Assembly (NCBI GenBank): GCA_945900775.1
Contig: CAMDJP010000007.1
Coordinates: 1-64,000 of the forward strand
Direction: 5' to 3'
Origin: Akkermansia muciniphila
GTDB lineage: Bacteria; Verrucomicrobiota; Verrucomicrobiia; Limisphaerales; SIAT01
Length of the DNA: 64,000 nucleotides
This document shows positions 33,597 to 39,784 of the stretch, piece after piece (position 1 is the stretch's first letter; each line of letters opens with the position of its first letter). The notes under the pieces are model-generated. The model did not search any database, was not told the DNA's origin, and worked only from the letters and a program-made list of their open reading frames with translations. The translations under genes were made by a program, and so were the position numbers.

Positions 33597-34127
33597 TCAA
33601 TAATCGTACAAGCCGCTGTCGTGTGTGTAAGCACCGCCACCGCGGCCGCCCATGCCACCGCGGCCGCCCATGCCACCGGGGCCGCCTTCCTCGCCACCCA
33701 TGAGGTCCCCGAACACATCGCCCATGTCGGCCTCGATCTTCTCGGGATCCTCGCCGGCTTCGAGGCGTTTGATGGCGATGTCCATTTCCTTGGGCATGGT
33801 GCCCGGCGGCATGAGGTCCTTCATCTTCTTCATCATATGAGCCATGTGGCGCGGATTGTTTTCGTCCATGTGCCCCATGTCCCGCTCCATCTCGGCCATC
33901 ACGCGCTCCATCTTGCGCGGGTCGATGTCGGGCATCGGCGGGCCGTCGCTCTCAGGCTTGGCGGTGGGCTCGGCGAGTCCCTTGCTGAGGGCGAACCGGC
34001 TGATCTCCTTCTCCAACTTCTTGCGGCCGCACTGGGGGCAGGCCGGCGAATGCGCCGGATTCACGCGCTTGGAGAGGAAGCTGAAGATCTTCCGGCACTT
34101 GGGACAGGCAAATTCGTAGATGGGCAT
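33597..34127 (-). CDS. FmdB-type zinc-ribbon protein
   Basis: A 176-residue protein beginning with the FmdB/CxxC_CXXC_SSSS zinc ribbon (MPIYEFACPKCRKIF, with CPQC downstream; Cys8, Cys11, Cys30, Cys33). This is followed by a Met-, Glu- and Asp-rich helical region (RKMERVMAEMERDMGHMDEN). The tail is Gly/Met-rich (GGMGGRGGMGGRGGG), ending in Tyr. Start ATG 34127 begins the zinc ribbon exactly. The Met-rich body is longer than in simple FmdB proteins. A regulatory or metal-linked role is possible but unproven. Confidence 0.8.
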   Translation of the reverse strand: MPIYEFACPKCRKIFSFLSKRVNPAHSPACPQCGRKKLEKEISRFALSKGLAEPTAKPESDGPPMPDIDPRKMERVMAEMERDMGHMDENNPRHMAHMMKKMKDLMPPGTMPKEMDIAIKRLEAGEDPEKIEADMGDVFGDLMGGEEGGPGGMGGRGGMGGRGGGAYTHDSGLYDY

Positions 34128-34263
34128 GCGTCTTTTCTTTCTCCGCTGAACTTCTTCAATAGAAGTTAGCAAGAACCGGTATCAATTGGCAAATAGCCTG
34201 AATCGTTGCCATTCGTCGGAGCGGCGAGCTCAGCGAGTTCAAATCATCGCCTCTCACGGAGTA

Positions 34264-34510
34264 AGAATAGAAGCCGGGGGCGAGCGGCTGAAATTTCTGT
34301 GTGTGCTGAAAGAGTTCACGCGGGAATTTCCGATACTGGAAGTGCGCCGAGGAATCCGTGGGAGAAGGCATATCTGGAATCGTTCAACAGCCGATCGCGT
34401 GCGGAGCACTTGAACCGCGACGCCGTACTCGTCGCTGGGGTTTCTGGCGCTGGCGGCGTTCGAGGAAACCTCGAAACCAACACTCCCATTGCACGTCGCT
34501 CAATAAACCT
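34264..34510 (+). pseudogene. IS3-type transposase remnant, internally deleted and frameshifted
   Basis: Three pieces of an IS3-family OrfB are found in different frames. The first (34264-34353) reads RIEAGGERLKFLCVLKEFTREFPILEV, matching the conserved R-L-K/F-L-x-V-x-D-E-F-T-R-E stretch with Asp changed to Lys (shown here only for reference). The second (34353-34430) reads NPWEKAYLESFNSRSRAEHL, which contains the final Glu of the DDE triad. The third (34475-34510) reads RNQHSHCTSLNKP, like the RPHSSL tail. The segment with the second catalytic Asp (SDNGPEF-type) is missing between pieces one and two, so this is a dead fragment. Confidence 0.7.
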
Positions 34511-34716
34511 CGGTTTTCCGAGGGTTCGAGACTGGATTTTCCATTTCTCGGCCCAGATGGGTCCCTATCCTAACAAAACAAGTCCGCCTCAAGCCCTGCG
34601 AACCGATTTTTTGGTCAGAAAGGGCGATTCCTCAGGGTTTCGGCTTTTTTCCTCCATCAGCGAGAACGTTCGACGGGAGCGGGAAGAAAAAATCTCAGAT
34701 TTTTTGTAAAAATTAT

Positions 34717-34746
34717 TTGACGGGGATATTACAAATCCGCTATACA
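34717..34746 (+). promoter_or_regulatory. Putative sigma-70 promoter of nrdAB
   Basis: TTGACG at 34717-34722 matches five of six -35 bases. After 18 bases comes TATACA (34741-34746), four of six -10 bases. The -10 element lies inside the first NrdR-like box. No other promoter of comparable quality was seen upstream of nrdA. Confidence 0.55.
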
Positions 34747-34752
34747 TGGTGC
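34737..34752 (+). promoter_or_regulatory. NrdR-box-like operator 1
   Basis: CCGCTATACATGGTGC matches the NrdR consensus acaCwAtATaTwGtgt at about 11 of 16 positions and covers the -10 hexamer. NrdR represses ribonucleotide reductase genes by binding pairs of such boxes. Its centre is 32 bases from that of box 2, about three helix turns, as is usual for NrdR pairs. Confidence 0.55.
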
Positions 34753-34768
34753 AGTTCATTGAAACTGG

Positions 34769-34784
34769 ACACAATTAGTTGTGT
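34769..34784 (+). promoter_or_regulatory. NrdR-box-like operator 2
   Basis: ACACAATTAGTTGTGT matches 13 of 16 NrdR consensus positions. It is the core of an 8-bp perfect inverted repeat (GGACACAA / TTGTGTCC, 34767-34786). It would lie at about +16 to +31 of the predicted transcript. An alternative is an IS end, since GGACACAA-like ends occur in IS elements and a transposase remnant is nearby. Confidence 0.6.
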
Positions 34785-34786
34785 CC

Positions 34787-35133
34787 TCTAGTGTAAAGAA
34801 GCGGCAGAGAGGGCTTGGGGATTAGCGGCGGAACCAGTGCTTTTCAGGGCGCGAAATCGAAGCGCGACTGAAAAGCAAAAGATGTAGGCTGGGGCGGTGC
34901 CGATTGGAAACCTTGAACCTCGCGACTGGGAATGCCCAGTTCGATGGGGCGATTTTGCCTCCTGCCCTCCGAACGTTTCCTCACACTAGCCTACCCGCAG
35001 GACGCGGGGCTGTCTCGCCAAGGACAGCCGGGAAAAGGGCCCAGTCGGTTTGAGGCGCGAGGTCGCGGCTCCTGTCGCCCCAAATCCTATTGCAGTAACG
35101 CGGCTGGCAACCGCACGAATCGACAACCAGACC
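34787..35133 (+). ncRNA. Long structured leader of nrdAB, candidate cis-regulatory RNA
   Basis: About 350 untranslated bases separate the predicted promoter from nrdA. Visible stems are GCTTTTCAG/CTGAAAAGC (34839-34876), ACTGGG/CCCAGT with an AATG loop (34925-34940) and GGCTGTC/GACAGCC (35008-35029). A long-range pairing GTAGGCT (34884-34890) with AGCCTAC (34988-34994) would close a multibranch element. No T-run terminator is seen. It does not match the cobalamin riboswitch core. An in-frame TTG at 35050 exists but the ATG at 35134 better fits nrdA. Whether the leader is functional is inference. Confidence 0.35.
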
Positions 35134-38040
<2,907 letters not shown>

Positions 38041-38081: not shown

Positions 38082-39140
38082 ATGTCCTGCTGTAACGTCT
38101 CCAACACCCCCGCTCAAGCCCACGACCTCACCAAGCGCGTCAACGCCGAGGACAAGCGACTCATCAACTGCAAGGCCGTGGATGTCAACCAACTCATGCC
38201 GCTCAAGTACAAGTGGGCGTGGGAACATTACCTGAACGCGAACAAGAACCATTGGCTCCCGAGCGAGGTGCCGATGCAGAAGGACATCGAACTGTGGAAG
38301 TCGAACAAGCTCACCGACGACGAGCGCCACGTCATCATGCGCAACCTCGGCTTCTTCTCCACCGCCGAGAGCCTCGTGGGCAACAACATCGTGCTGGCCA
38401 TCTTTAAGCACGTCACCAACCCCGAGTGCCGCCAGTACCTGCTCCGGCAGGCCTTCGAAGAGGCCATCCACACGCATACCTTCCACTACATCTGCGAGTC
38501 GCTCGGGTTAGACGAGCGCGAGGTGTTCAACATGTACCACGAGGTCAACTCCATCAGCGAGAAGGACCAATTCGAGATGAAGCTCACCAGCGAAATTCTC
38601 GATTCAAACTTCAGCACCGACACCGTCGAAGGCGTCCAGCAATTCCTCAAGAACCTCCTCGCCTTCTACGTCATTATGGAAGGCATCTTCTTCTACTCCG
38701 GCTTCGTGATGATGCTCTCCTTCCAGCGGCAGAACCGCATGACCGGCATCGCCGAGCAATTCCAGTACATCATGCGCGACGAGACCATCCACATGAACTT
38801 CGGCGTGGATCTCATCAACGGCATCAAGGAGGAGAACCCTGAGGCGTGGACGCCCGCCTTCCAAGCCGAACTACAGCAGATGATCGAGCAGGCCGTCGAA
38901 TTGGAAATCGCCTACGCGCAGGACTGTCTGCCCCGCGGCATCCTCGGTCTCAATGCCGGCCTCTTCCGCGAATACGTCCAGCACATCGCCGACCGCCGCC
39001 TCGAGCGCATCGGCATGGGCGCACGCTACGGCTCGCGCAACCCCTTCCCGTGGATGAGCGAGGCGATTGACCTTGGCAAAGAGAAGAATTTCTTCGAGAC
39101 ACGCGTGACCGAGTACCAGAGCGGATCGCTCACCTGGTGA
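38082..39140 (+). CDS. nrdB: Class Ic ribonucleotide reductase beta subunit (Phe in place of radical Tyr)
   Basis: A 352-residue ferritin-fold subunit that supplies the oxidant for NrdA. The metal ligands are Glu96, Glu127, His130, Glu200, Glu234 and His237 (in [22 protein letters not shown] and RDETIH). The residue four after His130, normally the radical Tyr, is Phe134, and the first ligand is Glu instead of the usual Asp. Each position equals that of Chlamydia trachomatis R2c plus seven. Such enzymes use a Mn/Fe centre instead of a tyrosyl radical. The sequence [18 protein letters not shown] is itself strongly chlamydia-like. Operon with nrdA; a terminator follows. Confidence 0.95.
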
Positions 39141-39159
39141 TTTAGGGGGTGGAGAACCG

Positions 39160-39197
39160 GGCGGCGGCTGGCAGCCCTTGCTGGCCGCCGCCTTTTT
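39160..39197 (+). terminator. Rho-independent terminator after nrdB
   Basis: A perfect 9-bp stem GGCGGCGGC/GCCGCCGCC (39160-39168 and 39184-39192) with a 15-base loop is followed by TTTTT (39193-39197). It lies between nrdB and dcd, 17 bases before the dcd start, and so should end or attenuate nrdAB transcription. Confidence 0.85.
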
Positions 39198-39214
39198 CTG
39201 AGCTCAACACAACT

Positions 39215-39784
39215 ATGGGAATCCACTCCGACAAATGGATCCGCAAGATGGCCAAGGAACACGGCATGATCGAGCCGTTCGCCGAGGCCCAGGTGCGCCA
39301 GTCCGCCGACGGCCGACGCGCCATCAGCTACGGCGTCTCCAGCTACGGTTACGACCTGCGCGTCTCCGACGAGTTCAAGGTCTTCACCAACGTCTTCAGC
39401 ACTGTGGTGGACCCAAAGGCCTTCGACGACAAATCGTTCGTGGACATAAAGACTGACGTCTGCATCGTGCCGCCAAACTCCTTCGCCCTCGCTCGCTCCA
39501 TCGAGTACTTCCGCATCCCGCGCCACGTCCTCACCATCTGTCTCGGCAAGAGCACCTACGCCCGGTGCGGCATCATCGTGAACGTCACGCCGTTCGAGCC
39601 GGAATGGGAAGGCCACGTGACTTTGGAAATCTCCAACACCACGCCGCTTCCTGCTAAAATCTACGCCAACGAAGGGCTCGCCCAGGTTCTTTTCCTTGAG
39701 GCCGAAGAAGTCTGTGAAATTTCCTACGCCGATCGCGGCGGCAAGTACATGAAACAGACCGGCATCACCATCCCACGGATGTGA
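39215..39784 (+). CDS. dcd: dCTP deaminase
   Basis: A 189-residue trimeric enzyme of the dUTPase fold that converts dCTP to dUTP (possibly also on to dUMP). Motifs are [13 protein letters not shown], the phosphate loop GKSTYAR (Ser113, Arg117), [16 protein letters not shown] with the catalytic Glu138, and the final [19 protein letters not shown]. The start ATG at 39215 follows the nrdB terminator; an in-frame ATG at 39149 falls before the terminator stem. With nrdAB it forms a deoxynucleotide-supply group. Confidence 0.92.

Follow-up and report, generated by a model that had tools for sequence, protein, structure and literature searches.

Paired putative NrdR boxes at the predicted promoter of nrdA-nrdB in a verrucomicrobial bacterium

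The DNA analysed here, referred to as the window, is a stretch of 64,000 nucleotides from a verrucomicrobial bacterium. Its plus strand carries the genes of a class I ribonucleotide reductase: nrdA, coding for the alpha subunit of 968 amino acids (35134..38040), and nrdB, coding for the beta subunit (38082..39140). They are followed on the same strand by dcd, coding for dCTP deaminase (39149..39784), and the close spacing makes it likely that dcd belongs to the same operon. The start of nrdA is placed at the ATG at 35134, since same-genus NrdA proteins align from that residue, and the leader is therefore approximately 380 nt long. Further upstream, an integrase-like fragment (about 34200-34560) sits between a gene for an FmdB-type zinc-ribbon protein (33597-34172) and the nrdA promoter. 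No match came from a plasmid search of this part of the DNA.

Upstream of nrdA we predict a sigma70-type promoter: a -35 element TTGACG (34717-34722, plus strand), a spacer of 18 bp and a -10 element TATACA (34741-34746, plus strand), with the transcript expected to start near 34753. The promoter is absent from the list of a generic promoter scanner, because that scanner demands a T at position 6 of the -10 element. Support for the prediction comes instead from conservation, in particular that of TTGAC at the level of the order.

Two 16-bp dyads on the plus strand accompany this promoter. Box A, CCGCTATACATGGTGC (34737-34752), agrees with the NrdR consensus ACACWATATATWGTGT at 11 of 16 positions, which is a weak match, while box B, ACACAATTAGTTGTGT (34769-34784), agrees at 13 of 16 and has a non-consensus centre. 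Both boxes contain C4 and G13. They are 32 bp apart from start to start, with a gap of 16 bp, and box B would span roughly +17 to +32 of the transcript predicted above. The -10 hexamer lies inside box A, and the genes downstream of this promoter are nrdA and nrdB, those of the ribonucleotide reductase. The original prediction had given the same two scores, the spacing of 32 bases and the overlap of the weaker box with TATACA, and our analysis reproduces all of these. In general, NrdR targets two 16-bp boxes that are 15-16 bp apart, and the operator rule allows gaps of 14-17 bp or 24-27 bp (PMC12051234); the gap in the window falls within the first of these ranges.

How often would such boxes occur by chance? 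The motif is near-palindromic, and the scan of the 64-kb window was done on the plus strand. Box B is the sole site with a score of at least 12 of 16, and boxes A and B form the sole pair scoring at least 24 at a spacing of 31 or 32. In a first-order Markov simulation of 200 windows, the expected number of single sites scoring at least 13 was 0.015 per window and that of pairs scoring at least 22 was 0.01, while pairs scoring at least 24 were found in none of the 200.

The regulator itself is encoded outside the window, as the original prediction had supposed. The assembly of this genome is approximately 91% complete and contains one match to the NrdR zinc ribbon (72.3 bits), on another contig (C24). 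The protein is intact, with a zinc ribbon (70.2 bits) and an ATP cone (74.9 bits), and its presence excludes the absence of NrdR from the genome, which had been named as evidence that would count against the operator. It keeps D15, R17 and R26-R29 (numbering of PMC9110341), residues of NrdR that take part in DNA reading and backbone contact (PMC9110341). Immediately 5' of nrdR there is a further box pair, CCACAAAGTGGTGTAT and ACACTTTATATTGTGG, 32 bp apart (L001 1642-1689), which suggests that nrdR is autoregulated.

A scan of related genomes had been proposed as a check. A box pair is found upstream of nrdA, 31-32 bp apart, in all 20 order-level loci tabulated, a set that is neither unbiased, as the boxes were chosen by their best score against the consensus, nor independent, as several loci of family f24 are near-identical. 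Neither C4 nor G13 varies in either box over these loci; box A has A6 as a further invariant position, and box B has A3, T11 and T14. Further, every one of the 20 loci has a TTGAC that starts 19-20 bp ahead of box A, and this register played no part in the selection of the boxes. The two same-genus genomes (G001 and G002) have NrdA proteins 90-91% identical to that of the window, and their DNA over the region upstream of nrdA is about 72% identical. Two other loci, L064 and L161 (genome G071), have equal NrdA identity and the same boxes. Many nrdA loci from more distant bacteria, among them proteobacterial and chlamydial loci, have pairs that are rarely or never matched by shuffled upstream sequence; a minority (for instance L011, L072, L083 and L089) show no convincing pair.

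We consider it very probable that the two dyads together form a single NrdR operator, each being a half-site, and that this operator controls nrdA-nrdB and probably dcd as well. Judged by its sequence, it would be a genuine but ordinary NrdR operator, of a kind already known. In other bacteria the NrdR tetramer with dATP and ATP or ADP binds both boxes and kinks the DNA (PMC9110341, PMC12051234, PMC12176259), and the conserved C and G of the boxes are NrdR contacts (PMC9110341). By analogy, at high dATP a tetramer carrying dATP and ATP (or ADP) would occupy the two boxes from the same face of the helix, bend the DNA and exclude RNA polymerase; such a block would follow from box A holding the -10 hexamer and box B lying just past the predicted start. 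Binding, nucleotide control and repression at this operator are all modelled on NrdR elsewhere. A similar arrangement is seen at nrdAB of E. coli, where one box is at the promoter and the other is downstream of it with a non-canonical centre (PMC12176259). The gap there is 15 bp, compared with 16 bp in the window, where a leader of about 380 nt follows.

The less expected part is the context of the operator. A cobalamin riboswitch (RF00174, 45.8-112.8 bits) precedes nrdA in eight families of the order (f14, f16, f25, f27, f39, f42, f49 and f52), and in most of these it lies downstream of a recognisable NrdR pair. In one genome of f49 (G050) the riboswitch is present and no convincing NrdR pair was found, and the leader of L010 has an additional terminator-like hairpin with a T run. 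The nrdA leaders of the window's genus (three genomes) and of family f24 gave no RF00174 match. At two loci (L008:4364-4589 and L162:1100-1271, minus strand) a second match to the cobalamin riboswitch is located after nrdA and is followed by an ORF other than nrdB, which, going by its sequence, reads as metE, a B12-independent methionine synthase.

While RF00174 holds its position before nrdA in the relatives, the window's genus shares only the hairpin pair that follows it. In the window these are two successive hairpins on the plus strand (34994-35008 and 35008-35029), apparently homologous to the element after the riboswitch aptamer, as indicated by alignment and by a covariance model (R1) of this two-hairpin element. 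R1 was built from nine relatives and searched unfiltered against 16 loci. Its best match is at the corresponding place, on the nrdA strand, in the window (L002) and at eight aptamer-less loci (L160, L163, L150, L156, L164, L153, L004 and L003), with 13.9-22.0 bits and E between 0.005 and 0.4. The match at L146 is weaker (11.6 bits, E 1.4), L151 has none even in the unfiltered search, and in whole-genome searches the element is not significant for the window's genome. Individually these matches are weak, and it is their consistent position that speaks for a surviving hairpin pair. The leader was also considered as a cobalamin leader detectable by sequence, and this was rejected: a profile HMM of eight relatives gave the window only 2.7 bits, on the hairpin pair, and found nothing in the two congeners. 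The B12 riboswitch at nrdA seems to have been lost or replaced in the window's genus.

One explanation would be that nrdJ, the gene of the B12-dependent reductase, was lost from the window's genome and that the riboswitch was lost as a consequence. This is not established. In the window's assembly nrdJ was not found, but der (named from its sequence), which adjoins nrdJ in G001 and G002, is likewise missing except for a weak match of 19.9 bits, so the absence may reflect an assembly gap rather than gene loss. Further, G001 and G002 do have nrdJ, and still no aptamer was detected at their nrdA. These two genomes, as well as that of the window, have a cobalamin riboswitch elsewhere. In ten genomes of f24 there was neither an NrdJ match above the family cut-off nor a cobalamin riboswitch match, and the weaker matches to the NrdJ model were nrdA itself or further fragments.

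In the place of the relatives' riboswitch, the window has a structured leader RNA of approximately 200 nt (34788..34989, plus strand), closed by a long helix of 34788-34803 with 34974-34989, and equivalents are found at L006 and L007. The segment 34786-34991 folds better than its shuffles (z -3.3), as do the equivalents in G001 (z -2.5) and G002 (z -2.1). Over the three species, 10 pairs are changed on both sides, compared with 4.9 in shuffles, none of 500 of which reached as many. A control with slid partners gave 0-1 two-sided pairs; the structure was derived from the same three sequences, and this control is biased in its favour. The covariation is support for a real structure and not for a function. 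The leader was rejected as a member of an Rfam family, as no family matched.

It could be argued that the operator is real but minor, and that the main control of nrdAB in the window's genus is this leader RNA, either as a much-changed cobalamin riboswitch or as a new aptamer. Its position is that of the relatives' riboswitch, its closing helix and hairpins covary in three species, in all of which it folds better than most shuffles, and the downstream hairpin pair is retained. In addition, the nrdJ genes of G001 and G002 mean that a reason for B12 control persists. However, the leader has no RF00174 match even at permissive thresholds, its interior shows little conservation among the three close species, no terminator-like site was found on its plus strand, and the comparison comprises only three sequences. 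We therefore regard a leading role of the RNA as unlikely. That the B12 aptamer was replaced in this genus by a different ligand- or protein-binding RNA, which retained the former hairpin pair for its output, we hold to be quite improbable; if true, the ribonucleotide reductase operon would have, beside the NrdR operator, another sensor that has not been described before.

A different role for box B itself is very improbable, namely that it acts as RNA, in the form of a 5' leader hairpin GGACACAA-UUAG-UUGUGUCC, and not as a DNA operator. In the window the stem is a perfect one of 8 bp, but the pairing is broken in G002 (A-G) and imperfect in L161 and family f24, while the positions of box B that are conserved over the 20 loci are those contacted by NrdR. 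In addition, the distance between the two boxes is fixed, and most of box A lies before the predicted start. A role of box B solely as an RNA hairpin was rejected, as conservation follows the NrdR contacts and not the stem pairing.

Least credible of all is the possibility, raised in the original prediction, that the dyad is a terminal inverted repeat of the upstream IS remnant and resembles NrdR boxes by accident: the remnant does exist, as the decayed IS-like integrase fragment mentioned above (rve_3, E 3.7e-4, below the family cut-off), but an IS-end origin was rejected, since no inverted repeat of at least 14 nt occurs within 34100-34720, the box pair is found across the order and also outside it, and G001 and G002 keep the same boxes and promoter, while their upstream sequence, as read, ends a different coding sequence and showed no IS remnant.

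The NrdR operator remains our preferred reading, and the systems closest to it include one from Streptomyces coelicolor. At the nrdRJ and nrdAB promoters of that species, as in the window, a pair of 16-bp boxes separated by some three turns of the helix occupies the site of RNA polymerase and has conserved C4 and G13, and its NrdR, like that of the window's genome, has D15, R17 and RRRR (PMC9110341). A B12 riboswitch has been reported for Streptomyces nrdABS (Borovok 2006, as cited in PMC5962746), a feature that, going by this citation, is shared with the order-level relatives of the window. In contrast to S. coelicolor, the window's genus is without a detectable B12 riboswitch at nrdAB, and in the window's genome nrdR is located on another contig and was not seen adjoining nrdJ.

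With no B12-riboswitch layer detected in the window's genus, NrdR is probably what chiefly remains to control nrdA there. For an order of Verrucomicrobiota, the locus offers clear sequence evidence of a standard NrdR operator that is fused to the promoter at a constant register. What differs is what accompanies it: a riboswitch in eight families, and none detected in the window's genus or in f24. Together, these genomes provide a natural comparison for the same operon: NrdR with a B12 riboswitch, NrdR with a remnant platform where nrdJ is not detected, and NrdR with an unassigned structured leader where nrdJ is kept. Such a comparison would let the contribution of each control layer be asked.
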